40,771 nt of DNA from a virus. The translations under genes were made by a program, and so were the position numbers. This document shows positions 7,360-40,000 of this stretch, piece by piece. Position 1 is the first letter of the stretch. The number at the start of each line of letters is the position of its first letter. The stretch covers positions 1-40,771 of the IMG/VR virus record IMGVR_UViG_3300010885_027938; one strand, written 5' to 3'. A model generated the notes under the pieces. That model saw only the letters and a program-made list of their open reading frames with translations, was not told the origin of the DNA and did no database searches.

Positions 7360-10298
7360 TACTTAGCCACCATAGTAGAATTGCTTCCAGGCAATCTAAT
7401 TATTCTGTCGCGTGCTGCCTCAGCTTTTCCAGCAGCGGTAAGGGCATACGCCTTTGCCATCCTAAGATCGGCAGCATTAACTGTAACCTTAGGGGCAGAT
7501 GGACGTGCAATATCCACTGATGGAAGAACTTTTGCGGATGCAACAACTGTTGGTTTAATGGCTTGCATATTTCTAAAGTAGTCAGATCCAGGTGTTGCCG
7601 CTGCTGGGGACGTGCCGCCAAGGTAATTTGTCCTTGCGGTGGTACCAACTGTCTGGTAGTCTGTTGGCTTGGTTGGGTTAATGTTGATAACATCTGGTAA
7701 TGGGTTATTTCCATTCTGCTGTCCCATACCTTGGGCAAAACCAGCAATTGCTCCGCCAATTGCCCCTGGGATTGCACCAATTCCGCCAGCAGATAGGCCA
7801 GCAAGTCCACCAGCCGCAGCACCGCCAATGATTGGATTCCATATTGAAGCGGCCTGCTGCTGCCTAATCTCTGGCTTAAGTGTCCAAATTCCAGGCTCGG
7901 TCTCGGTATACTTTTCCTTATTCGGTACAACAAAATTTAAGAACTGTGTATTTTTTTCTGCATTGATATTATTATCTTTTGTTCCGAATATAGCTGCCTT
8001 TAGTTCTGAAATTCTAGCATTCATTGATGCTTGCTGGAATGAGTCTGCGACACCAAGTTCACCCATCCTAAATGCTTGTACTTGCAGATTTCCCAACTCA
8101 ATAGTATTTGCCTTTGTAGTAATCTCAGTTATTGCAGCAGATGTTGCATTTGCAAGGTCTTCACCAATAATTTGACTCATATTGAGTATTGCTTGATTTT
8201 TTGGGTCTGCAAGCATTTGTGGAAGATTTTCTGCAAGTTTTCGCAACGCAGTAGGATTACCTGTTCCGCCGATCATAGCGTACAGTGACTTCACATTGAT
8301 TGCTGGAATTGTGCTTGATCCGCTTACTCCAGACTTTATTGAGTCACCCTTAGCTGGAATTAAAATTCCAGTCTCTGAATTCCCAGTCATTACGGAATCA
8401 AATGGGTTCTGGTCGTAAGTCGTACCATCATTCTTAATAAATGTCTCAGAACCGTCTTCCATAATGTATTTCCATCCCCAATTTTCAAGTGCTGGATTGC
8501 CCATAGTGTCAATTCCCTCAACTTGAATTTCATTTGATGCAACAATTGACTGTAGAACTGGGAGGAACTCACCACCAACCTCTTTCCAGGTAATCTGGTT
8601 AAGTCTTCCACTCGTTGCGGCAAGGTTAGTACCAATAACAGTACCCTTTGGACCAATGGACGGTAGATCAACAGTTTTCTTGCTAATGACGCCATCTTTA
8701 ACAGTGACCTCTTGTGCCTTCGTCCCGCTAATGAGTCCAGCAACGTTTGCAAGTGTTGCCCCAATAGATCCATTTGTATAGAACTCTTGGATATTAAAGT
8801 TCTTTCCACCAAGTGTAATGGTGACGTCCATTGCGCCCTCAAAGGTAAGTTGGTCAGCGGATGGAACCATCTGGCCAAGTGCAACGGAGGCTGAATTCAG
8901 GAGGTAACTCATCAGGATTGTCTGGTCCTGTGAGAACTCTGGTGGAACCAGTCGTGAGAGGTCATCCTTTGTAAGAGCGCCGTACTTTGTCATTGTCCCA
9001 TCCTGTCCAGTGAGGATTGGGCTTAGGTAGGCTGCCCACTCATTGAAGGCCTTATTGAGGAGGAAGTCATCCTGTCCAGCGGCCTGGACGTCGCGGGAAA
9101 ACTGGGTTGCAGCGTCAGCAATCTCATCAACCTTGGAAGCACTGCCAGTCCTGTAGTAGACCTTACTTGCCTTCTGGAAGAATGCAAGGTCGTCCTCACT
9201 GCCACTTGAGGCGTAGACCTTACGTGCGTTGTAGACGAGGCTTGTGACCTCCTTGTCGTAGAAGTTCCTCATAGCGAAGCCGCTGTCAAGTCCAGCTGCA
9301 ACGAGGCGTTCGTCAATGCTGATGACACCTGAGTCAACAAGCCGCATATACGATGCAATGACCTCTGGGTTGGCGATGACGTCCTCAATGGTGAATGGGT
9401 CTCCCTTGGAGAGCTTCTCCATTGAGACTGGGTCAACTGGTACACCAGACTGTGTTGCAGCAATTGCGTAGAGGTTGAGGATACTGGCCTTGTCTCCACC
9501 AGATCCCTTCTTTGCTTTGGCAACAGCAGCAGAAGCTGCAGCGGATGATGCACGGCTTGCATTGACTGAGATGGCTGCCTGGATCGCGGTGTCAAGGGTG
9601 CTCCCGCGCTCCACCCCAGAGGCGAGGATTGACTGCCTGAAGTTGCGTGCCCAGTTAGAGTACTCACTGTAGCTGATCTTATTAGCAGTGAGGAGGTTGT
9701 CCTTCTTTGCCTTCTCGGTATTCCACTCCGCAATCTTTGCTGAGTTTAGTGCGCTGCTGTAGGCCTCCGATGATGGGTCAAGTTGTGAGAGTGCAGTCTC
9801 AACGATTCCCCTGAAGTCACCAATGGAGATTCGGTTCTCTGAGAGCTTGTTAGCCAGGAGTGAGACGTAGGAGCTAGTTGTTGACTCAACTGCGGACGAG
9901 AATGTGGCCTTGTCCTGTGCGTCAGTTGACTCCATTGCACGTGTCTTAAGGAAGTTAATGACGTCAGCGTAGTTTGATCCACCAGTGTTGTTGAAGTCCG
10001 TAATCATCCCATTGTAGGTCCGCTTGATGTCAAAGTTGTTTGCTGCTTCAATCTTCTGTGAGATTGCTGTCCACTCAGTTGTACCCTGCTCAATCCCAGA
10101 GAGGTTACCGATCTCTTCGTAGAATGAGATGACGTCTGCCATTGTTGGAATGCTTCCATTAAATTCTGTCCCATTGTAGAAAGCATTCATAAAGACTGAC
10201 TCTTCTTGAGCCTTCTGCTGCTGAACCAGCGAGCGGATGGAATCAGAGAGGTTTGATGACCCAGCTACGATTCTTCCGAACTGACCACGTCGTGCCAT
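7359..10298 (-). CDS. Large virion protein with glycine-zipper segment
   Basis: A 979-residue protein encoded directly after the portal gene (TAATG overlap) and before the giant protein. It is mostly helical, rich in Ala, Ser, Asp and Lys, with no domain I recognise. Near residues 823-858 there is a glycine zipper (GGAAAGGLAGLSAGGIGAIP and onward), a membrane-inserting pattern common in phage ejection and tape-measure proteins. I infer a second internal virion protein that helps DNA cross the cell envelope. Base composition changes inside the gene: the part encoding the C-terminal half (about 7.4-8.8 kb) is clearly AT-richer than the rest, suggesting a recombinant origin. Confidence 0.55.
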   Translation of the reverse strand: MARRGQFGRIVAGSSNLSDSIRSLVQQQKAQEESVFMNAFYNGTEFNGSIPTMADVISFYEEIGNLSGIEQGTTEWTAISQKIEAANNFDIKRTYNGMITDFNNTGGSNYADVINFLKTRAMESTDAQDKATFSSAVESTTSSYVSLLANKLSENRISIGDFRGIVETALSQLDPSSEAYSSALNSAKIAEWNTEKAKKDNLLTANKISYSEYSNWARNFRQSILASGVERGSTLDTAIQAAISVNASRASSAAASAAVAKAKKGSGGDKASILNLYAIAATQSGVPVDPVSMEKLSKGDPFTIEDVIANPEVIASYMRLVDSGVISIDERLVAAGLDSGFAMRNFYDKEVTSLVYNARKVYASSGSEDDLAFFQKASKVYYRTGSASKVDEIADAATQFSRDVQAAGQDDFLLNKAFNEWAAYLSPILTGQDGTMTKYGALTKDDLSRLVPPEFSQDQTILMSYLLNSASVALGQMVPSADQLTFEGAMDVTITLGGKNFNIQEFYTNGSIGATLANVAGLISGTKAQEVTVKDGVISKKTVDLPSIGPKGTVIGTNLAATSGRLNQITWKEVGGEFLPVLQSIVASNEIQVEGIDTMGNPALENWGWKYIMEDGSETFIKNDGTTYDQNPFDSVMTGNSETGILIPAKGDSIKSGVSGSSTIPAINVKSLYAMIGGTGNPTALRKLAENLPQMLADPKNQAILNMSQIIGEDLANATSAAITEITTKANTIELGNLQVQAFRMGELGVADSFQQASMNARISELKAAIFGTKDNNINAEKNTQFLNFVVPNKEKYTETEPGIWTLKPEIRQQQAASIWNPIIGGAAAGGLAGLSAGGIGAIPGAIGGAIAGFAQGMGQQNGNNPLPDVININPTKPTDYQTVGTTARTNYLGGTSPAAATPGSDYFRNMQAIKPTVVASAKVLPSVDIARPSAPKVTVNAADLRMAKAYALTAAGKAEAARDRIIRLPGSNSTMVAK

Positions 10299-12754: not shown

Positions 12755-14253
12755 CAATCACTCGCTCCATAATAGGTGAAGGCTGGATTCTCCAGTCCCT
12801 TCTCAGGATTACGCAATGCGTGTCGCACTGCGATTGCTAGTGCCATCACTGCGTCTTGTTCTAGTTTCTTGTCCTCTAGTCTATAGATCAATAATTGTCT
12901 CTTAAGTTCGTCCCAGGCACCGCCAATTGGAAATTCAATCTGCCCCTTGTCAATGACTGCCTTGAGGTCATTAAGGAGTTCAACCTTCTTGGCCTTGGTC
13001 CCACCAAAATCAAATCCACGGAGTGGACGGATGATGGAGAACTCCTGCTGGAATAGGCGACCACCAAGGCCCGTGGAATCCACGATGGTGGTGCAGAATG
13101 CGCCGTCCTGGCTGTAGAGGAGGTGCCCCTCTCGGACCATATTGACAACAGAGGAGATGCTCTGCTTGCCACCGCGCTTCCTAATCCTAACACCTTTCAG
13201 CTTTCCGCGCTGAGTTGTGTCAAGGGTGATGGCCCAGGTCGCGTCGTGGGAGATTCCTGGGTCTACCCCCTGGACATATCGGTGGGCCCTAATGGGGCTG
13301 GACTCATCCTCTGCCGTCTTGTAAGCCGCCAGGATTGACTGGCTCCAGAAGAAAGCGTCCCGTGCCTCAATGAAGTAGCCGTCAATGTTCTGCGGGATCA
13401 GGTAGGCTGCCTGCTGGCGGATGACGTCATCAAAGTTGTCCTGGGTCAGGCCGTATCCGATGTTGTCGCGGGTGGAGAGTCGGAAGGAGATGAACTTGTC
13501 ATCCCTTACTGGGTTCTCTGGGTTACCCTTCTCCCAGAGTTCGGAGTAGTCGTTGATGCCTTCGCTCGGCGTCCCAATGAAGTGGAGTGGACCACCAGTA
13601 GAAAGTCGGCGGAGGTTGAGTACCTCTTGGTAGATCATCACAAGGTGCGGCTCAAAGGCCGCTTCGTCAAATGAGATCCCGTTCATATCCTTACCAAGGA
13701 GTGCTTTGGCTCGGTCCTGCGTGGTTCGGAAGTGGATGCTGGCCCCACCGATGATTGGGTGGAACTTGATCCAGGGGTACTCACCTCGGTACTTCTTGCT
13801 GGTCTCAATGACTTTACCAAGTTCCTTGCTGATCGCACATCCGCGACCCCTCTGGGCTGGGTGTGCACTACCAAGGATGGTCTCAATCTCGCGGAAGACT
13901 AGCTCTGCGGTCTCCTGCTGGATACCTACGTGGTACCACTCGTATGGTGCATCCAGCCACTGTTGATATGAGGACTGGTCCCCAGCGATTGGGTTTTTGA
14001 TCCCTAGTTTATATAGCGCGTGGTGAAGGCAGACCACAGCCATAGCAAGAGTCTTTCCTGCGCGGTTACCTGCGGATACAACCGTTGTAATATACCGTGG
14101 ACGGTATCCATCTGAGCTCCGTTCGGAACAGGCCTTCCACCAGGCTACTTGTCCAGGATTGCCTTGAATACCCAGCCAGCGAAAAGCAAAGAATTCAATG
14201 TCCTCACGTCCGCGAGCCAGATCAGTAGCGATGTCATTGGTTAACTGTCTCAA
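12754..14253 (-). CDS. terL: Terminase large subunit
   Basis: A 499-residue DNA-packaging motor: ATPase plus nuclease that cuts concatemers and pumps DNA into the procapsid through the portal. The Walker A motif GNRAGKT is at residues 62-68, and the Walker B motif GISFDEA at 192-198 has the catalytic Glu. The nuclease domain begins near VQGVDPGISHD (Asp331). Length is normal for the family. The start is TTG at 14253, overlapping the stop of the previous gene (TTGA); the ribosome site is weak, so translation is probably coupled. The portal gene follows immediately, as is standard. Confidence 0.95.
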   Translation of the reverse strand: MRQLTNDIATDLARGREDIEFFAFRWLGIQGNPGQVAWWKACSERSSDGYRPRYITTVVSAGNRAGKTLAMAVVCLHHALYKLGIKNPIAGDQSSYQQWLDAPYEWYHVGIQQETAELVFREIETILGSAHPAQRGRGCAISKELGKVIETSKKYRGEYPWIKFHPIIGGASIHFRTTQDRAKALLGKDMNGISFDEAAFEPHLVMIYQEVLNLRRLSTGGPLHFIGTPSEGINDYSELWEKGNPENPVRDDKFISFRLSTRDNIGYGLTQDNFDDVIRQQAAYLIPQNIDGYFIEARDAFFWSQSILAAYKTAEDESSPIRAHRYVQGVDPGISHDATWAITLDTTQRGKLKGVRIRKRGGKQSISSVVNMVREGHLLYSQDGAFCTTIVDSTGLGGRLFQQEFSIIRPLRGFDFGGTKAKKVELLNDLKAVIDKGQIEFPIGGAWDELKRQLLIYRLEDKKLEQDAVMALAIAVRHALRNPEKGLENPAFTYYGASD

Positions 14254-14555
14254 GACTTCTTCGCCTGTAGGCGAGATGAAATGCTCTTTGCCCTGGAGCG
14301 AGCATCCGCTTTGCTGCTAGAACCCCAGGCCTGAAGCGACAGAAGGAGTCGGGTCGGCTTCCCCTTCGCATCGCGTTCAGGACCTGGAGAATTTCCCATT
14401 CGTGCGAGGAATGATGCGCGTCGCGGATTGTCGCCGCTCTTGACTGGAGCCTTCAGTGTGCCGCCAGTCTGCGCCTTGTATGAAGCCCGACCCTTAGCGT
14501 TGAGACCACCATTTGGGTTCTGTCCCTCTTTACGCTGCCACGCTGATGTCTTCAA
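14250..14555 (-). CDS. Small basic protein, DUF6321-like
   Basis: A 101-residue, very basic protein (many Lys and Arg). The run GQNPNGGLNAKGRASY at about residues 11-26 and the segment NPRRASFLARMG resemble a conserved phage family I know as DUF6321; that match is from memory and no function is established for it. It lies directly before the large terminase and overlaps it by 4 bases, so a nucleic-acid-binding role in packaging is possible. Start TTG at 14555 with GAGG 7 bases upstream, overlapping the stop of the glycosyltransferase gene. Confidence 0.7.
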   Translation of the reverse strand: MKTSAWQRKEGQNPNGGLNAKGRASYKAQTGGTLKAPVKSGDNPRRASFLARMGNSPGPERDAKGKPTRLLLSLQAWGSSSKADARSRAKSISSRLQAKKS

Positions 14556-15088
14556 TCTCTTACCTCATTGTGGAAATATAATACTTCTGCGACCCTTGTG
14601 ATCTTTCCACCGTGACCCGCAAGACCGTTGATGAATGTTCCGTCTGCCTCGTAGTGGCGATCCTTGTATCCAACGCTACGAGCATAAGATGTCTTAACAA
14701 TGTAATTGCCAGAGGTTGAACTTCCAGAACTAAAGTTTGGAGTGGAGGACTTGCTCCATCCGCAGAAGACAACATCGCTGCCTTCCTGCGCCATCATCTT
14801 TTCGATGTAGGTCTTGTCGTACGAGTCGTCGTGGTTGAACCAGCCCGTGTAGTCAGATGTCGCCAGGTCAAGCCCCTTGGCTCGCTTCTCGTGTCCCCAG
14901 TCGTTGCGGTTCGGTTCCGCATAGAATGTAGCGCCAGTGTAGAGTTTTCTCGCAATTTCGCAAGGAGTGTCAGAAGCAAGAACAATGATTTCATCTGGCG
15001 GTCTACTCTGAGCGAGAAGCGCAGCAACCGTCCGAATCATTGCCGCTTCGTTCTCGTGAACAGTCACAACTGCTGTGAACGTCGCCAC
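14552..15088 (-). CDS. GT2-like glycosyltransferase (short GT-A domain)
   Basis: A 178-residue protein with the fold signature of family 2 glycosyltransferases, which move a sugar from a nucleotide-sugar to an acceptor. Visible features are the N-terminal VVTVHENEAAMIRTVAALL strand-helix, PDEIIVLASD, and a DXD-like metal site FNHDD (residues 84-88). It is shorter than usual (220-300 residues) and lacks an obvious acceptor domain. The start GTG at 15088 has a good GGGAGG site. It overlaps the 3' end of the cytidylyltransferase gene by 86 bases in another frame, so the pair is likely to be co-translated and to work on one glycan. Confidence 0.75.
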   Translation of the reverse strand: MATFTAVVTVHENEAAMIRTVAALLAQSRPPDEIIVLASDTPCEIARKLYTGATFYAEPNRNDWGHEKRAKGLDLATSDYTGWFNHDDSYDKTYIEKMMAQEGSDVVFCGWSKSSTPNFSSGSSTSGNYIVKTSYARSVGYKDRHYEADGTFINGLAGHGGKITRVAEVLYFHNEVRD

Positions 15089-15503
15089 GGATCCTCCCGA
15101 TGATGTCGCTTGTTGAGATGCCCTTAGTGTATGGAATGTAGAGCATTGAGATGCCCCTCATATGCAACCATTCGTGGCTGATCCCAAGTTGGTCAATGAG
15201 TGCATCTCCAGTCCAGTCATCACCGTGGGCAATGTACCTGACTTCTTTGTCACGGATTGTGTCAATTGTCAGACCGCTGTCTTCGTCTCCAATGTTTGTG
15301 ATGACATCATCAACCCAGCGGCAGGAACGAACCGACTCAATCCTCTCACCGAGGGTAAGGACTGGCTTACGCTTGTATCGATCACAGAAGTCATCGGTGT
15401 TGATTGCTACAATGACCTTGCCGTGTTGAGCGCATTGCTCAAGGAACCGAGCGTGTCCGTAATGGAATAAGTCAAACGTCCCGCCGACGTAGACCCAGCT
15501 CAC
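15003..15503 (-). CDS. TagD/glycerol-3-phosphate cytidylyltransferase-like nucleotidyltransferase
   Basis: A 166-residue enzyme of the cytidylyltransferase family, which couples CTP to a phosphorylated alcohol or sugar to make an activated CDP precursor. The signature GGTFDLFHYGH is at residues 7-17, with both catalytic His residues (H14, H17). RYKRKP at 42-47 and ISTSDIIGRIR at 129-139 are the other hallmark motifs. The catalytic domain ends near residue 141; the last 25 residues are Ser/Cys/Arg-rich and encoded in the overlap with the glycosyltransferase, so they look like read-on sequence rather than a domain. The start GTG overlaps the preceding stop (GTGA). The substrate is not deducible; glycerol-3-phosphate is the family's best-known one. 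Confidence 0.85.
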   Translation of the reverse strand: MSWVYVGGTFDLFHYGHARFLEQCAQHGKVIVAINTDDFCDRYKRKPVLTLGERIESVRSCRWVDDVITNIGDEDSGLTIDTIRDKEVRYIAHGDDWTGDALIDQLGISHEWLHMRGISMLYIPYTKGISTSDIIGRIRGDVHSSCDCSRERSGNDSDGCCASRSE

Positions 15504-22493: not shown

Positions 22494-22523
22494 TTGACAG
22501 GGGGAGACTGACCACACTAAGCT
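22494..22523 (+). promoter_or_regulatory. Rightward early promoter (sigma70-like)
   Basis: A perfect -35 TTGACA at 22494-22499, an 18-base spacer and a weak -10 TAAGCT at 22518-22523. The -35 sits in GTATTGACAG, shared with the strong promoter at 27.87 kb, which has the same 18-base spacer. It would start the ribozyme-containing transcript near 22530. Confidence 0.55.
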
Positions 22524-22679
22524 TGGGTCAGACAGCTCAGGACGAACCGCCGAACGAAGAAGAGCGGGAGACCTGAGTGGCAGAAGGTCAACTGACCAGC
22601 GGTGAGCTGAGGCAGAAGACCACAAGCCAGCCGCAAGGTCGGTCTCCTTGACAGGTGAATATATGAACAAGACCTCCAA

Positions 22680-22745
22680 CCGAAACGGTGGCGCCGCAAG
22701 GCGTCGCCGTCCACGGAGTAGGAGCTCGCTCCGTGCTGATGAGGC
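22680..22745 (+). ncRNA. Type II hammerhead ribozyme 1
   Basis: GAAA at 22682-22685 and CTGATGA at 22736-22742 form the core. Stem III is C22686-C22695 with G22700-G22709 (10 bp, two wobbles), capped by a GCAA tetraloop. U22710 and C22711 precede the cleavage site. Stem I is CACGGAG (22712-22718) with CTCCGTG (22729-22735). The open stem II is weak here: CC at 22680-22681 with GG at 22743-22744. Cleavage after 22711 would free the leader from the message of the first gene, whose AGGAGG site starts 12 bases after the core. Confidence 0.8.
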
Positions 22746-22764
22746 AATGGGCTCAGGAGGTCAT

Positions 22765-23004
22765 ATGGCGAAGACCAAGTGCTCAACCAAGGTCGGCTGG
22801 CTTAGCAGCGGTGGGTTCACCCCGCCGAAGCCCTGCACCAAGGTGGCAACGGTCATCCAGACACACACGGTTGCACCCTTTGTCAGCCCAGCTGGCAAGG
22901 ACTTCAACCGTGCTGGTGGTACCTACGTCAATGCCTACTGCGACAGGCACAAGAGCAGTGACGCAGACGTCGTCCGCTTCGGGATGACGGTGGAAAAGCT
23001 CTAG
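22765..23004 (+). CDS. Small zinc-binding-type protein, first early gene
   Basis: A 79-residue protein with Cys/His spacing of a small zinc protein: KCSTKV near the start, PCTKVA in the middle, and AYCDRH near the end. The 57-residue protein at 27944-28117 has the same plan (KCKSRV, ACGKAG, MCKEH), so the two look like distant paralogues. The start ATG at 22765 was chosen over upstream ATGs because AGGAGG lies 4 bases before it and the upstream frame would run through the ribozyme. The gene sits between ribozymes 1 and 2 and ends in the TAG that begins ribozyme 2. Function unknown. Confidence 0.8.
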   Translation: MAKTKCSTKVGWLSSGGFTPPKPCTKVATVIQTHTVAPFVSPAGKDFNRAGGTYVNAYCDRHKSSDADVVRFGMTVEKL

Positions 23005-23073
23005 CCGAAACGGATGCATAGGATCCCCTTCAGCATCCGTCCTGCGGGACTGACCGTCCGCAGCTGATGAGGC
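23004..23073 (+). ncRNA. Type II hammerhead ribozyme 2
   Basis: Stem II is GCC (23004-23006) with GGC (23071-23073). GAAA is at 23007-23010. Stem III is CGGATGC (23011-23017) with GCATCCG (23033-23039), 7 perfect pairs. U23040-C23041 precede the cut. Stem I is CTGCGG (23042-23047) with CCGCAG (23058-23063), and CTGATGA is at 23064-23070. Its first G is the last base of the previous gene's TAG stop. All core bases are present. Confidence 0.93.
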
Positions 23074-23096
23074 AGGTCAAAACAAGGAGGTTGGAA

Positions 23097-23411
23097 ATGT
23101 TTAGGACAGAGATTCGCATTGACGGCGAGTGCTTCCGCATCGTGTGCGGCAATCGCGACAAGGCGCTCCAGTTTGCTCACGAGGTGGCAATTGACCACCT
23201 TGGAACCTATGAGGTTACCGAAGCAGGTGCTGAGGATGACATCACGGAGGCACTGATGGACAGCGACGATGTGTCTTGGGTTGACGTTGCGCTCCCAGTG
23301 GTGGCAGCGGACTACCCAAGGTGCCCAGAGTGCGACCTGATGGGATCGTTCAGCTCTGGCGACACCAGTCAGTGGTGCGAGGCTTGCGGATACGATTCAG
23401 AGGAGGCATAG
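23097..23411 (+). CDS. Hypothetical protein with C-terminal zinc ribbon
   Basis: A 104-residue acidic protein. The first 70 residues look like an alpha/beta fold (FRTEIRIDGECFRIVCGN and onward) that I do not recognise. The C-terminus has two CxxC pairs, CPECD and CEACGY, a classic zinc ribbon. The start ATG at 23097 follows AAGGAGGTT; an in-frame ATG at 23067 overlaps the ribozyme core and has no site. Flanked by ribozymes 2 and 3, with its TAG stop fused to ribozyme 3. An early host-takeover role is conceivable, without direct evidence. Confidence 0.8.
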   Translation: MFRTEIRIDGECFRIVCGNRDKALQFAHEVAIDHLGTYEVTEAGAEDDITEALMDSDDVSWVDVALPVVAADYPRCPECDLMGSFSSGDTSQWCEACGYDSEEA

Positions 23412-23463
23412 CCGAAACGCCGTGAGGCGTCTCGCAGAGGAGCCCGACTGCGACTGATGAGGC
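23411..23463 (+). ncRNA. Type II hammerhead ribozyme 3
   Basis: Stem II is GCC (23411-23413) with GGC (23461-23463). GAAA is at 23414-23417. Stem III is CGCC (23418-23421) with GGCG (23426-23429), closed by a GUGA tetraloop. U23430-C23431 precede the cut. Stem I is TCGCAG (23432-23437) with CTGCGA (23448-23453), and CTGATGA is at 23454-23460. It is the most compact of the four and again starts on the G of the TAG stop. Confidence 0.93.
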
Positions 23464-23483
23464 AGGGCACATAGGAGGTTCAG

Positions 23484-23765
23484 ATGGCAACGAAGGTGCT
23501 CAAGTTTGGGAAGCATACGATAAAGCACAGGTCAGCTTCGCTGGCTGGTCGGTTTGCTGTGGCAGACGTGCTCGCGTTCGGTAGCGAGAAGGTCACGTTT
23601 GACCAGCTGGTCGTCGCATTTGCTAGTGGCAGATGGTCTGACGACATAGTGGTCTGCGAGGAGTATGAGTACTACGACAAGGACTCACTGATCAAGAAGT
23701 TGAACGAGCTTAAAGCTGGGTACATCGCATACGCTGATGCCCTGCTCACAGTGAAGGAGGACTGA
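23484..23765 (+). CDS. Hypothetical early protein
   Basis: A 93-residue protein with basic N-terminal (KVLKFGKHTIKHR) and acidic C-terminal parts (EEYEYYDKDS). The Tyr-rich motif and helices at the end suggest a small globular fold, but no family is recognised. The ATG at 23484 follows AGGAGGTT. The next gene (40 residues) begins 1 base after the stop and is not separated by a ribozyme, so these two share one processed message. Confidence 0.75.
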   Translation: MATKVLKFGKHTIKHRSASLAGRFAVADVLAFGSEKVTFDQLVVAFASGRWSDDIVVCEEYEYYDKDSLIKKLNELKAGYIAYADALLTVKED

Positions 23766-23766
23766 C

Positions 23767-23889
23767 GTGAAGTGCGAAGTATGCAAGCTGGCAACGATTA
23801 CGTACGCGGTTTACAAGGGTATGATCCTATGCCAAGATTGCTGGTACTGGGTCAAGTATGAGGACGACGTGAATCCTGAGGAGGAGTAG
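23767..23889 (+). CDS. 40-residue zinc-finger-like microprotein
   Basis: A tiny protein starting at GTG 23767 with AAGGAGG 7 bases upstream. It reads MKCEVCKLATITYAVYKG, then ILCQDCWYWV and an acidic tail: two CxxC pairs about 18 residues apart, a minimal zinc ribbon. It follows the preceding gene by one base and ends in the TAG that opens ribozyme 4. The good ribosome site, the intact Cys pairs and the stop fused to the ribozyme make it a convincing gene. Partner unknown. Confidence 0.75.
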   Translation: MKCEVCKLATITYAVYKGMILCQDCWYWVKYEDDVNPEEE

Positions 23890-23951
23890 CCGAAACTAGG
23901 TGAGTGCGACACCTAGTCAGCTGGGGGTTGTATCCCCAGCTCTGATGAGGC
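23889..23951 (+). ncRNA. Type II hammerhead ribozyme 4
   Basis: Stem II is GCC (23889-23891) with GGC (23949-23951). GAAA is at 23892-23895. Stem III is CTAGGTG (23896-23902) with CACCTAG (23910-23916). U23917-C23918 precede the cut. Stem I is AGCTGGGG (23919-23926) with CCCCAGCT (23934-23941), and CTGATGA is at 23942-23948. All pairs in stems I and III are perfect, and it overlaps the preceding TAG stop by one base. Confidence 0.95.
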
Positions 23952-23980
23952 AGACACCTCGCGCAATAGGAGGTTGGGAA

Positions 23981-24172
23981 ATGAACAAGGAGCTTCTCGC
24001 AACAGTGCTGGCTGGGCTGGCAGGATCAATCGCGGCATTCTTGCTGACGGAGAGCGTCTTCGCAGGGGTGCTCACGTTCTTCGCAACGGCGGGGTTCGTG
24101 GTCTTCTTCGTAGTGATTGCGGACGAGGTGAGTCGTCGCCTCCGCCGCCACTACACAGGGCAGGACTTCTAG
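23981..24172 (+). CDS. Small two-helix membrane protein
   Basis: A 63-residue protein with two likely membrane helices (about residues 5-22 and 26-47; the second is Phe/Val-rich, VLTFFATAGFVVFFVVIAD) and a basic, cytoplasm-facing tail (SRRLRRHY). The ATG at 23981 follows AGGAGGTT, the leader shared with other early genes. It lies directly after ribozyme 4. Candidates include an early membrane or exclusion protein or a second holin; the sequence does not decide. Confidence 0.75.
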   Translation: MNKELLATVLAGLAGSIAAFLLTESVFAGVLTFFATAGFVVFFVVIADEVSRRLRRHYTGQDF

Positions 24173-25979: not shown

Positions 25980-26479
25980 TTGAGGTTGAGTTCACGGAAA
26001 TGGACGATGAGATTGATGAGTTCTCAGTAGCTAGGCGTATCAAGTACGGCATCAGGACCAATGAGTGGGGAGAGGAGGGCCGCCGATCAGCGGAGGCCCT
26101 CCTCCAGTACGGCCACAAGGCCCTCAGGGTCGTCGTTGACAGCGAGTGGGAGCTAGCCATCGCCTGTGACGACTGCAACCTCTGGGCCTCAATGACGAGG
26201 GAGCTCCCGATGATGAAGATGTCCTACGAGTCAGTCGGCGGGACACTCCTGAAGGTGGTAAACTGTTCGCCCACAGCAGTGGCGGACAACTTCAGGGGCA
26301 AGGTCAGCGAGCGGACCGCGTGGGATGGCTACAGTGGTTGGCAGTTTGATGCTGCCCCAATCACCTCAAGGGTCGGTGAGTACCTATACCCACAGAAGAA
26401 GGGCCGCAAGCACGGACACGAGTACAAGAAAGAAAGGGAGGCACGAGATGCGGCAGCCGCCGAGGAGCAGGGAAGCTGA
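25976..26479 (+). CDS. Hypothetical early protein upstream of helicase
   Basis: A 167-residue protein. It contains a CDDC pair (AIACDDCNLWASM) in the first half and a basic Lys/Glu/Arg helix at the end (KKGRKHGHEYKKEREARDAA). No family recognised. The GTG at 25976 overlaps the previous stop and follows a G-rich segment. Its 3' end overlaps the helicase start by 32 bases, hinting at coupling. A helper in replication, such as a helicase loader, is a thought from position only. Confidence 0.65.
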   Translation: MIEVEFTEMDDEIDEFSVARRIKYGIRTNEWGEEGRRSAEALLQYGHKALRVVVDSEWELAIACDDCNLWASMTRELPMMKMSYESVGGTLLKVVNCSPTAVADNFRGKVSERTAWDGYSGWQFDAAPITSRVGEYLYPQKKGRKHGHEYKKEREARDAAAAEEQGS

Positions 26480-27755
26480 GTCTGGCCTAATCGGGTCAGT
26501 CCTCATTGACGAGAACGCCATCACCTACGCGTCGGACATCACCCCAGAGGACTTTGCCACACCGTCCCACAGGGCGGTATGGCGGGCCGTCCTTGGGGTG
26601 GCATCACGGCGCGAGGCCTTGGACGTGGTCACCATCTCTGATGAGCTGGAGCGGACTGGCCACTTAGACGACGCTGGTGGGCGTACTGGGGTAGTTGACC
26701 TACTTCACACGACACCGACGTCGGCCAACGTGGAGTCATACGCCGAGGCAGTACGACGTACGGCCACCCTCAGGCGCCTCATTGAGGCAGCTGGCAAGGT
26801 GGCCGAGATTGCGTACGAGAATCCAGCCAATGCCGAGGAGGCACTGGATCGGGCTGAGGCGGAGATCTACAGCGTGGCGAGGGCCAGTCGGAGGACAGCC
26901 TTCGTCGGGATGGAGGCACTGGTATCTGAGGCAGTCTCACGTTTGGACTGGACACGCCACAACAGGGGCAACGCCATCGGCGTCGGCTCTGGGCTCCCAG
27001 CACTTGACGCGATGACTGGTGGGTGGCAGCCATCCGACCTCACCATCCTAGCTGCACGCCCCAGTGTCGGTAAGACGGCACTGGCACTCAACATTGCACA
27101 GCACGCCGCCATCAGGGAGGGGAAGAGGGTCGCCATCTTCTCGCTGGAGATGAGCCGCGACCAGCTGGCCACACGCCTGATGTCAGGGGTCTCTGGGGTT
27201 GACATCTTCCGCATCCGTAGGGGTGAGGTTGAGGGGGTGGACCTAGCCCGCATTGCGGGTGCCGTCCACCACCTTGAGGGCTCCAAGATCTTCATTGACG
27301 ACAGCCCAGTGGCGAGCCCCATTGACCTCAGGTCAAAGGCCCGCCGACTAGCAAACGAGGGTGGACTTGACCTCATCATCGTGGACTACCTCCAGCTGAT
27401 GATGCCTGCCAAGGCCACCAAGGACGGCAACCGAGTCACAGAGACCAGCGACATCAGCCGAGGGCTGAAGGCAATGGCAAGGGAGCTAGAGGTCCCAGTG
27501 ATCGCCCTCTCCCAGCTCAGTCGTGCATCCGAGCACCGTGAGGGTGGCCAGCCACGGCTGGCCGACCTCAGGGACTCTGGCGCAATTGAGCAGGACGCTG
27601 ACCTTGTGCTATTGTTGTGGCGACCGAACGGCCAAGAGCACGGTGCTCCAGAGGAGAACGTGAAGCTGGCCTTAGCGAAGCACCGCAACGGTCCCACAGG
27701 GGAGCTGGACCTCGTCTTCCGCAAGGCGACTACGACGTTCGGGGACCCACACTAG
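26448..27755 (+). CDS. dnaB: Replicative DNA helicase, DnaB family
   Basis: A 435-residue hexameric 5'-3' replicative helicase. Residues 1-110 match the DnaB N-terminal domain (REAESGLIGSVLIDENAI). The RecA-like motor has Walker A ARPSVGKTAL (Lys209), the H1a motif IFSLEMS, Walker B IIVDYLQLM (Asp313), the H3 motif ALSQLSR and RDSGAIEQDADLVLLLWR. The start ATG at 26448 follows AAGGGAGG and was chosen because the N-terminal domain begins right there. It is the only replisome enzyme I see; no primase or polymerase is encoded, so host enzymes must complete the fork. Confidence 0.95.
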   Translation: MRQPPRSREAESGLIGSVLIDENAITYASDITPEDFATPSHRAVWRAVLGVASRREALDVVTISDELERTGHLDDAGGRTGVVDLLHTTPTSANVESYAEAVRRTATLRRLIEAAGKVAEIAYENPANAEEALDRAEAEIYSVARASRRTAFVGMEALVSEAVSRLDWTRHNRGNAIGVGSGLPALDAMTGGWQPSDLTILAARPSVGKTALALNIAQHAAIREGKRVAIFSLEMSRDQLATRLMSGVSGVDIFRIRRGEVEGVDLARIAGAVHHLEGSKIFIDDSPVASPIDLRSKARRLANEGGLDLIIVDYLQLMMPAKATKDGNRVTETSDISRGLKAMARELEVPVIALSQLSRASEHREGGQPRLADLRDSGAIEQDADLVLLLWRPNGQEHGAPEENVKLALAKHRNGPTGELDLVFRKATTTFGDPH

Positions 27756-27782
27756 ATACGGGGGTCGCCTCACCCCCACACT

Positions 27783-27821
27783 AAGGCCTGCCAGTCTCCC
27801 AGCTGGCAGGCCTTTCTTTTT
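27783..27821 (+). terminator. Rho-independent terminator after dnaB
   Basis: A 12-pair stem built on AGGCCTGCCAG / CTGGCAGGCCT with an 8-base loop, followed by TTTCTTTTT. It ends the rightward early unit before the next promoter. Confidence 0.93.
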
Positions 27822-27867: not shown

Positions 27868-27897
27868 TTGACAGCCCAAATGTAACAATGTTATAAT
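27868..27897 (+). promoter_or_regulatory. Strong sigma70-like promoter
   Basis: Consensus -35 TTGACA (27868-27873), an 18-base spacer and consensus -10 TATAAT (27892-27897). It drives the single gene at 27944. Two perfect boxes make it the strongest promoter visible in the window. Confidence 0.9.
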
Positions 27898-27943: not shown

Positions 27944-28117
27944 ATGGACAAGAAGTGCAAGTCAAGGGTCTACCAGATGGGTGGAAACGTCGCCTGCGGC
28001 AAGGCTGGGGCCTTTGCCACCAAGGCCAACCCAAGGAGCTGGATGTGCAAGGAGCACTTTGACCAGCACATCAGACTCCTTGGCCTTCGGGTCAAGACGG
28101 TGGTCATCGGGATCTAG
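27944..28117 (+). CDS. 57-residue zinc-binding-type protein with its own strong promoter
   Basis: A small basic protein, too short for routine gene calls: MDKKCKSRVYQMGGNVACG, then WMCKEHFDQHIRLLGLRVKT. Its Cys/His pattern (C, C, C, H, H) follows that of the first early gene (22765-23004), suggesting a common origin. The ATG at 27944 has AGGAGG 7 bases upstream. It forms a one-gene unit between a consensus promoter and a terminator, so it should be abundantly made. This suggests a protein needed early and in quantity, possibly a host inhibitor or regulator; this is inference. Confidence 0.8.
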   Translation: MDKKCKSRVYQMGGNVACGKAGAFATKANPRSWMCKEHFDQHIRLLGLRVKTVVIGI

Positions 28118-29263: not shown

Positions 29264-29420
29264 GGTCTACCTCCTTGATGATGGCGTTGGCGGCGTAGGC
29301 TGCCAACTGTTCTTTGTTGGGCTGGCCCTCAAGGCCATCCAGTAGGAGCTTAAAGATGTGGAGCCAGATCTGTGAGATGAGGACCGCGTCTGGCTTCCGC
29401 CGATGGGATGGGACCGCCAT
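29247..29420 (-). CDS. 57-residue hypothetical protein
   Basis: A short protein beginning MAVPSHRRKPDAVLISQIWL and ending in an Ala-rich helix (LAAYAANAIIKEV). It starts at ATG 29420 in the TAATG overlap with the stop of the RmlC-like gene and overlaps the membrane-protein start by 17 bases, so it fits the coupled gene chain exactly and fills an otherwise empty gap. No family recognised. Confidence 0.65.
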   Translation of the reverse strand: MAVPSHRRKPDAVLISQIWLHIFKLLLDGLEGQPNKEQLAAYAANAIIKEVDLGYAA

Positions 29421-29971
29421 TACTCTTCGCCAACCGTTCGGAGGAGGTCGTCGCCAGCACGCTTCCAGTTTGCGAGGGTCTCGCTCGTGCCGTCCGTCTT
29501 CACGGATGGCGCAGCCTTGTCCTTCTCGCTGATGATGAGCTGGGCTCGGATCTTCTCAAGGTCGGCCTCAATGTCTGGTAGGCCAAGGTAGGAGATCCCG
29601 ATCTCGTGCTCTGCTCGGTAGATGTCTGTCGTGGCGTAGGTGACGGTGGTGTCCTCAAGTGCGAGGAAGCCACGGCCCCACCACCAGGGGGCAAAGAAGA
29701 CCTTACCGTCCCCAGCCTCCATCGTCTCGGAGATGACCTTGCCGTAGAGGATTGACGCTGGGTCAAGGTTGACGGCGTAGATGATGGCCTTCCCGCTGGC
29801 AACCCACATCGCCTTGCTCATAAGGCGCTGGGCGTGGATGCCACGGAAGGTGCCGCCCAGGGACCACGACATATTGATCTGGGCAAAGCCGTAGTCCTTG
29901 AGGACCTCGCTGAAGTATCCGCGATTGTCCTTGAATACGTTTGCCTTAATAATCTTCGGCTCAAAGCTCAT
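29420..29971 (-). CDS. RmlC-like dTDP-4-dehydrorhamnose 3,5-epimerase family protein
   Basis: A 183-residue cupin of the RmlC family, which epimerises a dTDP-keto-sugar on the way to dTDP-rhamnose and related sugars. TFRGIHAQ carries the catalytic-type His46, and YATTDIY the Tyr118 at the family's acid site. The usual AHGF motif reads GRGF here (Arg100 in place of His), which may change its activity or substrate. The start ATG at 29971 follows AAAGGAG; an upstream in-frame ATG is rejected. It overlaps the Hjc-like nuclease gene by 11 bases. It probably acts with the RmlD-like and epimerase genes at 32.6-34.4 kb. Confidence 0.8.
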   Translation of the reverse strand: MSFEPKIIKANVFKDNRGYFSEVLKDYGFAQINMSWSLGGTFRGIHAQRLMSKAMWVASGKAIIYAVNLDPASILYGKVISETMEAGDGKVFFAPWWWGRGFLALEDTTVTYATTDIYRAEHEIGISYLGLPDIEADLEKIRAQLIISEKDKAAPSVKTDGTSETLANWKRAGDDLLRTVGEE

Positions 29972-30332
29972 CTTTTTCTCCTTTACCAAACCACTGCACA
30001 AAGTCCTCAAAGTCTATGACGGCCAGCGCGGACCTTCTAACGCCAGCCCCAGGGGAGTCACCGACCACGAGGACGGCCAGCTGGTCAGCCTTCGGGGTCA
30101 ACTCCCTCAACCACTTGTCCAGCCTGGTGGGGTAGCTGAGTCCGACCTTGCACTGGATGACAAACATCTCAGTCTCCACGTCAGTCTTCCCGCCATACTG
30201 GCCAGTACGCTTTCCATTCAGACGTGAGGCGACCTCACGTTCAAAGCTGTTGCCCCTCTGGCGGGCACGCTTGCCACGTGAGGACTTCTCAGCATTTGCC
30301 TGGTCAATTGCCAGGTCCTTCATCTTACCCAT
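29961..30332 (-). CDS. PD-(D/E)XK nuclease, Hjc-like Holliday junction resolvase
   Basis: A 123-residue basic protein with GNSFEREVASRLNG (Glu31/Glu33), TDVE (Asp51) and VIQCKVG (Gln60, Lys62), the layout of archaeal/phage Hjc-type resolvases. Such enzymes cut branched DNA before packaging. The usual ExK is QxK here. The gene belongs with the recombination set upstream (exonuclease, annealase, SSB-like). A restriction-like nuclease is the alternative. The ATG at 30332 follows GAGGGTGAAG. Confidence 0.7.
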   Translation of the reverse strand: MGKMKDLAIDQANAEKSSRGKRARQRGNSFEREVASRLNGKRTGQYGGKTDVETEMFVIQCKVGLSYPTRLDKWLRELTPKADQLAVLVVGDSPGAGVRRSALAVIDFEDFVQWFGKGEKDEL

Positions 30333-31936: not shown

Positions 31937-32610
31937 CCTCTACACTCCTTTAGCCATTGGCAGCCCTTGCAGGGCCACTCCGCCTTCATATCCTTCCCCC
32001 TTCGGGACGGCAAGCGAGGCGGCTTGCGCTTGCCAAAGTATTGTAGCACCTTTAGGACGCGGATGGAGCGGTCCCGCCAACCACGGTCCAACTTGAACTC
32101 AAGGAGCTTGAAGTCCTCGGCCGCTGCGTAGATCACACGGGCCTCCACTGGGACACCGAGCTCAGCCTCAAGGATGAGGGCGTAGATGGAGGCCTGGACC
32201 GCGTGCTCTGGCTTGACCTCACGGATGTACTGCATCCCTCGGTTGGTTGTGGATTTGTACTCCCAGACCTCGTGCCTCCCGTCAGGCCACTGGACCAGGG
32301 CATCCACGTTGCCAGAGAAGTCGTACTCTGGAAGGAGGACTGGTACCTCTTCCTGGAAGCTGAGGAGCTCCCCAGCCTCAAGGGCATCCTTACCAGCCTT
32401 ATTGAGGACCTCAGCCACCGCGTGGCCCCGCTCAAAGATGCGGTAGAGATTGTCTGGGAAGGGGTTACTTGGCTCCACCTTCTCAGCGGCATACCACTGC
32501 TGGCGGACGCAGGCCCCAAGGAGGGAGCCGCGCCAGCGGGCAATGGCGGGCCGCCCCACCGCAGCCTTGCGGGAGAGGTAGCCGTCAAGGATGCCAGAGA
32601 AGTTGCTCAC
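31933..32610 (-). CDS. PD-(D/E)XK exonuclease, Cas4/RecB-like with four Cys
   Basis: A 225-residue nuclease. Core motifs are FSGNVDAL (Asp103), EVWEYKST (Glu117 and Lys119) and the QASIYAL motif (Gln139) of RecB/Cas4 nucleases. One N-terminal Cys (34) and three C-terminal Cys (CKGCQWLKEC, about 213-222) match the iron-sulfur cluster arrangement of Cas4 and AddB. It should resect DNA ends to give ssDNA for the ERF annealase encoded next. No CRISPR genes are nearby, so it is a phage recombination enzyme rather than an adaptation factor. The start GTG overlaps the stop of the epimerase gene. Confidence 0.85.
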   Translation of the reverse strand: MSNFSGILDGYLSRKAAVGRPAIARWRGSLLGACVRQQWYAAEKVEPSNPFPDNLYRIFERGHAVAEVLNKAGKDALEAGELLSFQEEVPVLLPEYDFSGNVDALVQWPDGRHEVWEYKSTTNRGMQYIREVKPEHAVQASIYALILEAELGVPVEARVIYAAAEDFKLLEFKLDRGWRDRSIRVLKVLQYFGKRKPPRLPSRRGKDMKAEWPCKGCQWLKECRG

Positions 32611-33563
32611 TTCTCCAACTGTTCTTTGTAGATCTCGGTGCGAGTGCGGAGGTTGCCGTTGTATGAGATCAGGGCCTGCTCCACATCAATGAGTTCCAGT
32701 CGGTCAGTGGTCTTCACCAGCTCACTGTCTCGGATCTCAAAGTGGTAGAGGAGTCGCCCGTTGTCCATCCAGTAGTCCCTCTTGTCTCCGTCGTCGCCAA
32801 CGTATGGGGAGACATCAACGCCGAGGGTAAGTGCAACACGTTCAGCAATCTGAGTGACCGTCACATTCTCAGCACAGGCATTGTAGATACCCTGGACCGT
32901 TGGGAGGATACAGGCCAGGGAGATGATCCAGCCAGCGTCATCAACGTGGAGGATTGGCCGCTTGGCAGCTGACTGCGGGTGGATGTGCTTCTTTTGGATG
33001 GCCTCCCAGGTAAAGGCGTTGACCACGAGGTCACGCCGCATATTGGGTGCCGCACCCCAGAGGGTGCCAAGTCGGAGGGAGACCCAGGAGCGTTCCTGCT
33101 GCCAGAGCCACTCGTCCATCTTGACCTTACTTTTGGAGTAGGCCGTCAGTGGGTCGGTTGCTGTGGACTCCTTGGCAATGTCTCCGTTGGCACCGTAGAC
33201 CGATGCTGAGGAGATGTAGACAAAGCGGCCGTTAGGGTTCCTCTCCCAGAAGTCCTGGGCCTTCAGCTTTGGTAGCTCGTAGTTGGACCAGAAGGTGTCA
33301 AACTCGTCTAGGTTCCCCATATGGTCATTGCTAACAGCGGCAAGCCAGACGATGGTGTCGTAGGTGCCGAGTGGGTCAATGTCAGAGAAGCGTGAGTTCT
33401 TCCCGTTCCGCTCTGAGTGTGGGATATGCTCGCCGTCAAGGCCACTGATGCTCTCGTCGTACCATCCCTCGTCAATCCCGTGGACCGTCGCCCCACTACG
33501 CTTGAGGTGTTTGACCAGCATTGGGCCAATGAAGCCACGGTGTCCGACTACTAATACTTTCAT
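32607..33563 (-). CDS. NAD-dependent epimerase/dehydratase (extended SDR)
   Basis: A 318-residue nucleotide-sugar enzyme. The NAD-binding motif VVGHRGFIG has Gly7, Gly10 and Gly13. The catalytic set is SSAS (about 118-121), Tyr142 and Lys146 (YSKSK). Length matches extended SDRs such as UDP-glucose 4-epimerase and GDP/dTDP-sugar dehydratases; the exact substrate is not deducible. It is translationally coupled to the RmlD-like gene (ATGA overlap) and probably serves the same sugar pathway. Confidence 0.85.
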   Translation of the reverse strand: MKVLVVGHRGFIGPMLVKHLKRSGATVHGIDEGWYDESISGLDGEHIPHSERNGKNSRFSDIDPLGTYDTIVWLAAVSNDHMGNLDEFDTFWSNYELPKLKAQDFWERNPNGRFVYISSASVYGANGDIAKESTATDPLTAYSKSKVKMDEWLWQQERSWVSLRLGTLWGAAPNMRRDLVVNAFTWEAIQKKHIHPQSAAKRPILHVDDAGWIISLACILPTVQGIYNACAENVTVTQIAERVALTLGVDVSPYVGDDGDKRDYWMDNGRLLYHFEIRDSELVKTTDRLELIDVEQALISYNGNLRTRTEIYKEQLEK

Positions 33564-34402
33564 CGTTTGATCCTTTCTTCGGCACGGGGGCCGCTGATGT
33601 ATTCCTGCATTGCCTCAGCCCACGTGCGGAAGCGCGGGAGCCGCGTATTAATGAGTGCCCCATACTTTGGGCGGGTCTGGTCAAAGCGGAAGGAGCCAGT
33701 TATGCGGCCCTTGTTGCGTGCCATCTGTCGGGCTACGCGGGCAAACTCCATCCAGTTGGTGACACCCTGATTGACAAGGTGGTAGACGCCGCGAGACTGA
33801 GCACCAGCTAAATCAACCAAGTGCTCCGCCACATCTGGTAGGTAGGTCGGGCTGAAGAACTGGTCAGTCGGTAGGTCAATCTTGTTCTTCGTTGAGGTGA
33901 TCATATCTACAAAGCTTGGCTTCATCGGAGAGGGGTAGACGCCCCAGGGGCTGCTGATGCGGGCCACGATTCCGCCGCGCTCCAGGGTCTTCTCTTCACC
34001 CATAAGCTTTGTCTGGCCGTAGATGCTGAGGCCGCCTCGGCTTACGGCCTCCTCATTAAGGGGTCGGTCCTCCTCATTGAGGTCAAAGACGTAGTCGGTG
34101 GAGATGTAGACCTGCTTGGCCACGTTACCAATGATCTCTGGGAGGAGGACGTTGGCAACCAGTGCCCCCCTCTGGTCTTTCTCGCAGAGGTTGATGTCCC
34201 TCAGTGCGCCGCAGTTGATAACCCCAGTGATGTCGTCGTCCTTGAGCTGCTGTGCAAGGCTTGCCATATCGTAGGACACAAAAACGCCCGCCTCAGCGTC
34301 TAGCTGAAGCGAGCGTGTGTAGACCTTGAATCGCGCCTTACGGCGGCGCAGTTCGGCAATGACGTGCTGCGCTACTTGTCCCGACCCAATGACCCCGTAC
34401 AT
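33560..34402 (-). CDS. RmlD-like dTDP-4-dehydrorhamnose reductase family protein
   Basis: A 280-residue SDR of the RmlD type: an N-terminal GVIGSGQVAQ nucleotide-binding turn, INCGALRDINLCE, STDYVFD at 101-107 and YGQTK (Tyr128, Lys132). RmlD reduces dTDP-4-dehydrorhamnose to dTDP-rhamnose. The glycine motif is GxGxxA rather than the usual GxxGxxG. The start ATG follows AGGAGGGTCGG; the same 15 bases including the ATG stand before the glycosyltransferase at 39875, suggesting shared origin or matched translation. It is probably part of a rhamnose-like sugar route with the RmlC-like and epimerase genes. Confidence 0.85.
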   Translation of the reverse strand: MYGVIGSGQVAQHVIAELRRRKARFKVYTRSLQLDAEAGVFVSYDMASLAQQLKDDDITGVINCGALRDINLCEKDQRGALVANVLLPEIIGNVAKQVYISTDYVFDLNEEDRPLNEEAVSRGGLSIYGQTKLMGEEKTLERGGIVARISSPWGVYPSPMKPSFVDMITSTKNKIDLPTDQFFSPTYLPDVAEHLVDLAGAQSRGVYHLVNQGVTNWMEFARVARQMARNKGRITGSFRFDQTRPKYGALINTRLPRFRTWAEAMQEYISGPRAEERIKR

Positions 34403-38018: not shown

Positions 38019-38656
38019 TATCCGAGCCTCCGAATGCGACGAAGCCGTGCCTCCTCGCGTCGGACCCTCGCCTGGTTGGAGAGGGCGATCTGGTTCATTG
38101 AGAGTGCGGAGACGTCCGAGTTCCCTGACTGGACCTGCCACTGCTGGAAGGCCACGCGGTCAGAGAGGAGTCGGTTGAAGGCCTCTGCCTGGGCCCAGAC
38201 GCGGACGGAGGCAATGGCAGAGACATCCATATCCGTGGTTGCCGTGCTGGAGGAGAGCTGGACAAATCCAGAGTACCCAAAGATCTTGAGGGTCCCTGGG
38301 GACGGGAGTGTGTAGTGTGGCGGGAAGAAGATGATCCCGCTGTGGACCTCCCAACCTGAGTCTGGGCCGTCACCACTGGATGGGTGGAGGCTCTCTCGGT
38401 ACTGGCCACTACTATCATAAACGTCCACGCGGAAGGGCCAGCTCACAGTGCTCAGTGCAACGGAGTTGACGGCACCAGATACTGGTTGCGTATATGCAAC
38501 TGACTGGATTGCCTCCTTTGGGTAGAATCCATTGACCCAGTCAATCCCTGAATTGATGAGGTCGTTGACCTCCGTGTCGCTCCACGTTGCCCCGTTGGGG
38601 TCGCGGAGATCTGATCGTACCGATGTCCTAAGTGCTGAGAGTGTCTCTCCTGCCAT
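38018..38656 (-). CDS. Head-tail adaptor protein
   Basis: A 212-residue protein. The start ETLSALRTSVRSDLRDPNGA, then WSDTEVNDLINSGIDWVNGF, is the characteristic N-terminal helix-turn of phage adaptor proteins that join portal to tail. A beta-sandwich middle follows and a basic helical tail (RVRREEARLRRIRRLG) closes the chain. It is encoded between the capsid side and the tail genes, as expected. The gene overlaps the glycosyltransferase by 29 bases. Confidence 0.7.
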   Translation of the reverse strand: MAGETLSALRTSVRSDLRDPNGATWSDTEVNDLINSGIDWVNGFYPKEAIQSVAYTQPVSGAVNSVALSTVSWPFRVDVYDSSGQYRESLHPSSGDGPDSGWEVHSGIIFFPPHYTLPSPGTLKIFGYSGFVQLSSSTATTDMDVSAIASVRVWAQAEAFNRLLSDRVAFQQWQVQSGNSDVSALSMNQIALSNQARVRREEARLRRIRRLG

Positions 38657-39875: not shown

Positions 39876-39887
39876 CCGACCCTCCTG

Positions 39888-39907
39888 AGCGAGCATAGGG
39901 GCTCGCT
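39888..39907 (-). other. Hairpin directly upstream of the GT4 ribosome site
   Basis: Perfect 7-base arms AGCGAGC / GCTCGCT with a 6-base loop. On the minus strand it lies just before the AGGAGGG site of the glycosyltransferase gene. On the plus strand it is followed by TTTTGTTT and so resembles a terminator, but no plus-strand transcript is expected here. Confidence 0.5.
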
Positions 39908-40000
39908 TTTTGTTTGGTGTCACTAAGTGCCACCGTTAGTATTATCGGGCCTCTACGCGCTCTGGGGAGGCCTTTACGTTGATTCTAGCAGGTCCTACTC

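Follow-up and report, generated by a model that had tools for sequence, protein, structure and literature searches.

Clustered hammerhead ribozymes flanking genes were reported in 2011 by Perreault et al. in prophages of Clostridium scindens, Azorhizobium caulinodans and Agrobacterium tumefaciens, with the proposal that they process transcripts into single-gene mRNAs, and cleavage was demonstrated in vitro for three native arrays and in E. coli for one (PMC3088659). A further source summarizes an enrichment of hammerhead and twister ribozymes close to one another and to Mu-like phage genes, and the reason for the clustering is stated there as unknown (PMC10085705). Hammerheads go unmentioned in a paper on theta ribozymes in phages. 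The purpose of bacterial and phage hammerheads is still an open question, and it is on this question that the array described here bears.

The window, by which we mean the whole 40,771-base phage record analysed, carries four type II hammerheads on the plus strand, with GAAA motifs at 22682, 23007, 23414 and 23892. Copy 1 is located in a leader and copies 2–4 behind the genes gA, gB and gD, all four within 1.3 kb; the array separates gA, gB, gC–gD and gE on the same strand, which fits the clustered phage hammerhead arrays of Perreault et al. 2011. Very probably, these are genuine type II hammerheads, one in the leader and the others among the first genes of the early/replication operon of an uncultured phage of approximately 40.8 kb, where they would cut the transcript into discrete, end-protected mRNAs; the sequence and structure of the elements, their covariation and placement and their conservation in array carriers are observed, and cleavage in the cell, protection of the ends and an effect on expression are the predicted parts of this reading. 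The array is not new in kind, because clustered phage hammerheads, together with the processing idea and cleavage, were published in 2011. An earlier note on this DNA had called a run of four unusual, which holds only mildly in view of those arrays and of the 8 of 100 viral records, in a sample chosen for having a hammerhead pattern, that carried at least four copies and up to ten.

The record ends carry a 21-base direct repeat, and the record is therefore probably a complete circular map. Its predicted transcription unit with the ribozymes comprises the following features:

22494–22523, plus strand: predicted promoter by consensus match (TTGACA, 18-nt spacer, TAAGCT, a TANNNT-type −10)
22530–22677, plus strand: predicted 5′ leader RNA upstream of ribozyme 1, with the conserved stretch GGTGARCKGAGGCAG; start placed from the predicted promoter
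22680–22745, plus strand: hammerhead 1 (5′ leader copy), predicted cut after C22711; RF02276, 34.9 bits; counterparts at the same place in relatives G013 and G035
22765–23004, plus strand: gA, 79 aa, no confident Pfam or PHROG match; its final UAG is common to ribozyme 2
23004–23073, plus strand: hammerhead 2, predicted cut after C23041; RF02276, 39.7 bits
23097–23411, plus strand: gB, 104 aa, two CxxC pairs; its final UAG is common to ribozyme 3
23411–23463, plus strand: hammerhead 3, predicted cut after C23431; RF02276, 34.6 bits
23484–23765, plus strand: gC, 93 aa, no confident match
23767–23889, plus strand: gD, 40 aa, GTG start, two CxxC pairs; its final UAG is common to ribozyme 4
23889–23951, plus strand: hammerhead 4, predicted cut after C23918; RF02276, 43.0 bits; G013 and G003 have counterparts immediately 5′ of their gE homologues
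23981–24172, plus strand: gE, 63 aa, membrane-like; weak holin-like Pfam match below the cut-off (E 0.028)
26448–27755, plus strand: DnaB-like replicative helicase (PF03796, E 1.7e-91), last large gene of the unit
27783–27814, plus strand: predicted intrinsic terminator just 3′ of dnaB, closing the early unit

We infer that the unit is early because DnaB is encoded in it. An element similar to the promoter at 22494 occurs at the same place in G013; the promoter is absent from the list of a stricter scan. The G013 homologue of gA (52% identity) has a hammerhead before and after it, and that of gC (61%) has one directly upstream, as here. The gB protein gave zero Pfam or PHROG matches, and gD matched phrog_15572, of unknown function (E 2e-4). 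At copies 2–4, the distance from the stop codon to the next ATG is 75–95 nt, with AGGAGG immediately before the ATG. Elsewhere in the record, a promoter of perfect TTGACA-18-TATAAT form, its −10 preceded by TG (27868–27897), follows the terminator and precedes a lone 57-aa cysteine-containing gene (27944–28117), which has the DnaB unit on one side and convergent opposite-strand genes on the other. The minus strand also bears sugar and glycosyltransferase genes (14552–15503, 29420–30010, 32607–34402 and 38628–39923); these comprise glycosyl transferases, a cytidylyltransferase, a dTDP-sugar epimerase, an RmlD-like gene and an NAD-dependent epimerase, and their presence suggests that the phage carries surface-sugar modification genes.

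All four copies match the Rfam covariance model of the type II hammerhead (RF02276) across its whole 66 positions, at 22678–22753, 23003–23081, 23410–23471 and 23888–23959, with E-values of at most 2.7e-4 in a targeted search and at most 4.6e-7 in a search of the record itself. Copies 2 and 4 exceed the gathering score of 37 bits, and copies 1 and 3 fall below it by 2.1–2.4 bits. The covariance search that the earlier note had proposed thus finds every copy, two on each side of that threshold. Each copy runs in the order GAAA, stem III hairpin, GUC, stem I hairpin, CTGATGA and the 3′ strand of a stem II of 2–3 bp; stems I and III are loop-closed and stem II is open in all four, which is the type II permutation, and the GAAA, the CTGATGA (CUGANGA) and GTC as the NUH triplet are invariant. 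Stem II has 2 bp in copy 1 (CC/GG) and 3 bp in each of copies 2–4 (GCC/GGC). The predicted cut follows the H of the GUC triplet that separates stem III from stem I, at C22711, C23041, C23431 and C23918, exactly where the earlier note had placed it. The three-stem motif occurs four times on the plus strand of the record, zero times on its minus strand and zero times in 300 order-1 Markov windows; chance origin of the four motifs was a candidate that the 0 of 300 simulated windows ruled out. Among other Rfam families, the early unit yielded just a weak ftsZ-DE match (27760–27816), far below its gathering score, which corresponds to the terminator hairpin. The minimum-energy folds of copies 1 and 2 in isolation do not show the complete hammerhead, which may reflect the inability of the program to model the pseudoknot.

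The earlier note had also claimed that stems I and III pair in every copy while their sequences differ, and this is borne out in all four copies and, beyond them, in a family set of 15 distinct hammerhead copies from four related phages. Counting pairs from the stem ends, as loop lengths differ among copies, the first four pairs of stem III were paired in 60 of 60 cells (mean of 35 with shuffled partners) and the first six pairs of stem I in 89 of 90 (mean of 54), with up to five pair types per stem position across the 15 copies. These are the compensatory changes in related phages for which the note had suggested looking: the structure is conserved and the sequence is not. RNAalifold recovers stem I unaided, with double changes at six of nine pairs. 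Type II hammerheads have been described as forming a pseudoknot of loop I with the tail that follows stem II (PMC3088659), and its counterparts here are 6 bp in copy 1 (AGCTCG/TGGGCT, with two wobble pairs), 5 bp in copy 2 (TGACC/GGTCA) and 4 bp in copy 3 (GCCC/GGGC); that of copy 4 is weak, with the lowest score among the four copies of the record. The complementarity of each loop to its own tail lay above 300 of 300 shuffles both in the family (10.8 versus 8.1) and in 135 other viral copies among the matches listed (8.7 versus 6.6). Because this complementarity is weak in copy 4 and in the copies of G035, the speed of their cleavage is uncertain. Taken together, the Rfam matches, the covariation, the pseudoknot and the conserved place in relatives strongly support the identification as four tandem type II hammerheads that the earlier note had made from the letters, with cleavage as the predicted activity.

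The three copies located at gene ends in this phage share a placement: in all three, stem II takes its first base from the UAG stop codon that ends the gene before it. The earlier description of stem II as GCC or CC paired with GG or GGC therefore stands with the amendment that in copies 2–4 its 5′ strand shares sequence with the stop codon that closes the previous gene. UAG is the stop at 11 of 12 gene-end copies of the family; among the remaining genes of this phage it ends 10 of 53. A pattern scan of viral contigs returned at least 119 stretches, and 135 distinct type II hammerheads were parsed among the matches listed; 88 of these (65%) had a stop codon 12 to 3 bases before the GAAA, scored as a stop at −12 to −3 that closes an upstream frame of 40 codons or more. 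The corresponding values were 5.1% at random positions, 2.2% on the antisense strand and 4 of 39 at the 5′ ends of tRNAs in the same contigs. The register of type I copies was weaker, 40% abutting or containing a stop at −8 to +1, with a further peak at +7 that is probably the TGA of the CTGATGA core in copies with a 6-bp stem I; 20 type III copies were not in register above chance. On the other side of the ribozyme, the distance from its end to a start codon preceded by a Shine–Dalgarno sequence (SD) had a median of 26 nt (141 type II copies among the matches listed). We found no statement of a stop-codon register rule in a limited search of open-licence papers, and this tight placement appears to be an unreported general rule, part of which may be an effect of genome compaction.

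Some of the viral pattern matches merit description in their own right. In the type I matches (L260–L378), the upstream stop often begins at ribozyme position +7. A 67.6-kb viral contig (G064; L019 reverse strand, about 3100–8000) has ten RF02276 matches in about 5 kb, several of its upstream genes end inside the ribozyme with the C-terminal residues ...AETAR encoded by the GCCGAAAC core, and two of its adjacent gene–ribozyme units resemble tandem duplicates.

Relatives with terminases 81–88% identical to that of this phage carry arrays at the same locus, namely G013 and its near copy G012 (five copies), G035 (four) and G003 (two). They are 4 of 45 terminase relatives; the other 41 gave no match, many records being fragments and five of the 41 being 40–41 kb long, and on this count the array is dispensable within the lineage. 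The five 40–41 kb array-less relatives have no detectable gA–gE, nor have the other array-less records examined; the loss of the ribozyme cores with retention of the flanking genes, which the earlier note had named as evidence against its reading, was thus not seen. Other self-cleaving ribozymes at the gathering threshold numbered zero in 140 kb of array-less relatives. Three array-less relatives (G030, G040 and G014) have GC-rich hairpins, mostly 9–39 nt 3′ of several stop codons, and some intergenic promoters, and G035 is mixed, with hammerheads at its first four genes and hairpin-plus-TTGACA spacers later; these arrangements suggest that the two kinds of element may fill the same slot. No cultured phage with the same terminase was found, nor was a host via the terminase in GTDB genomes. 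DnaB had distant matches only, of at most 42% identity among the matches listed and across many hosts, and no DnaB relative was found in eight unrelated array-bearing records. In the array-less stretches L229, L232 and L243, small early genes are parted by similar GC-rich hairpins, for example GGGGGGCGGC-loop-GCCGCCCCCT, located shortly past stop codons and followed by an SD; it is possible that they are functional counterparts of the ribozymes.

The earlier note had proposed that the array splits an early polycistronic RNA. The anatomy fits, in that a single promoter (22494) and a single terminator (27783) are predicted for the unit and the ribozymes occupy precisely the gaps from gene ends to the following Shine–Dalgarno sequence; the proposal is partly supported overall, and splitting of one early transcript is plausible, though not new. 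In our model, polymerase would transcribe 22.5–27.8 kb, and each ribozyme would fold and cut itself, to give a leader (to 22711), a gA mRNA (22712–23041), a gB mRNA (23042–23431), a gC–gD mRNA (23432–23918) and a gE-to-dnaB mRNA from 23919. With stem II open, the predicted cut falls between two closed hairpins, and therefore stem III would stay on the upstream mRNA as a 3′-terminal hairpin 20–37 nt past the stop codon, and stem I on the downstream mRNA as a 5′-terminal hairpin with a 5′-OH. Terminal hairpins and non-triphosphate 5′ ends slow exonucleases and the entry of RppH and RNase E in model bacteria. The likeliest use would be the production of discrete, end-protected early mRNAs in amounts that can differ, RNA cleavage doing what relatives may do via intergenic GC hairpins and extra promoters.

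Ribozyme 1 would also release the leader as a separate RNA of roughly 180 nt. The leader, whose conserved part lies at 22590–22677, is about 90% identical over 119 nt to G013/G012, whereas the adjacent gA protein is only 52% identical to that of G013; between G013 and G035, leader identity is 84% over 37 nt. Outside this record, the motif GGTGARCKGAGGCAG was found only in three array-carrying relatives (G013, G012 and G035), with the leader at about 12760–12880 on the minus strand of L220 in G013 and at L224:6960–7075 in G035. The fold of the leader has a z-score of −3.4 in this record versus −1.5 in G013, and the leader gave zero Rfam matches.

Several other readings of the locus have to be weighed. 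The ribozymes could be real and their stop-codon register merely the product of compaction between tightly packed phage genes, a serious contender that we nevertheless think falls short of probable. The short distance to the downstream start codon, and the stops that type I copies likewise abut or contain, are what compaction would lead one to expect; it accounts less well for the rarity of tRNAs in register within the same contigs, for the GC hairpins of array-less relatives, which mostly begin well past the stop, and for the excess of UAG at family copies over the rest of the phage. A point against the splitting reading itself is that ribosomes terminating at the embedded UAG could cover the GAAA strand and slow cleavage. 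We offer, tentatively and as a somewhat doubtful extension, the idea that phage hammerheads, type II above all, are stop-codon-coupled elements forming mRNA 3′ ends: the stop would lie inside the open stem, terminating ribosomes would compete with ribozyme folding, and the cuts would leave a hairpin on both new mRNA ends, in place of terminator–promoter pairs, copy 1 also freeing the conserved structured leader as a small RNA.

It is likewise conceivable, if rather unlikely, that the ribozymes are chiefly cis-regulators in the 5′ UTR of the downstream gene, setting its 5′ end and stability, and not operon splitters. An SD and a start codon follow each ribozyme, the leader copy, which has no gene before it, is conserved in both G013 and G035, and the hammerheads preceding gC and gE are conserved together with those genes; however, the ribozymes are tied in position most closely to the upstream stop and not to the downstream start, and a ligand-binding element is not evident. 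Ends with 5′-OH and 2′,3′-cyclic phosphate are substrates of RtcB, and the short units flanked by successive copies could in principle be joined by an RtcB-type ligase into circular or spliced RNAs. We consider this very improbable, as RNA ligase and kinase families were absent among the 30 record proteins scanned with Pfam, and Perreault et al. sought circular or spliced products and found none (PMC3088659). Scarcely credible, finally, is that copy 1 is coding sequence: an open frame does run from ATG 22663 through copy 1 into gA, within a 118-aa frame at 22648–23004, but orthologous copies vary in length yet keep the core and stems, and a strong SD (AGGAGG) stands just before ATG 22765. The splitting of the early transcript by genuine ribozymes is the reading that we retain as the most probable.

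Compared with known systems, the array shares with RF02276 (Hammerhead_II) the core, the permutation, the short open stem II and the loop I–tail pseudoknot, and shows no difference in kind, two of its copies being below the gathering score. As in the account of hammerhead and twister loci (PMC10085705), self-cleaving ribozymes cluster here in a phage-associated locus. As in the prophage arrays of Perreault et al. 2011, several hammerheads flank single genes or short blocks in phage DNA; the present array differs in being all type II, in having a leader copy first, in its location within the early unit of a group of uncultured phages, and in having UAG stops embedded in stem II, and the term ‘stop codon’ is absent from the 2011 paper (PMC3088659). 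The placement on the upstream stop codon and the hairpin that cleavage would leave at each new RNA end go further than the earlier note, and the array owes its usefulness to the stop-codon register and to its being present in some relatives and absent from others. Together, the register rule and the relatives with and without ribozymes turn ‘some kind of processing’ into a testable proposal, namely that of ribozyme-made mRNA ends directly behind stop codons.
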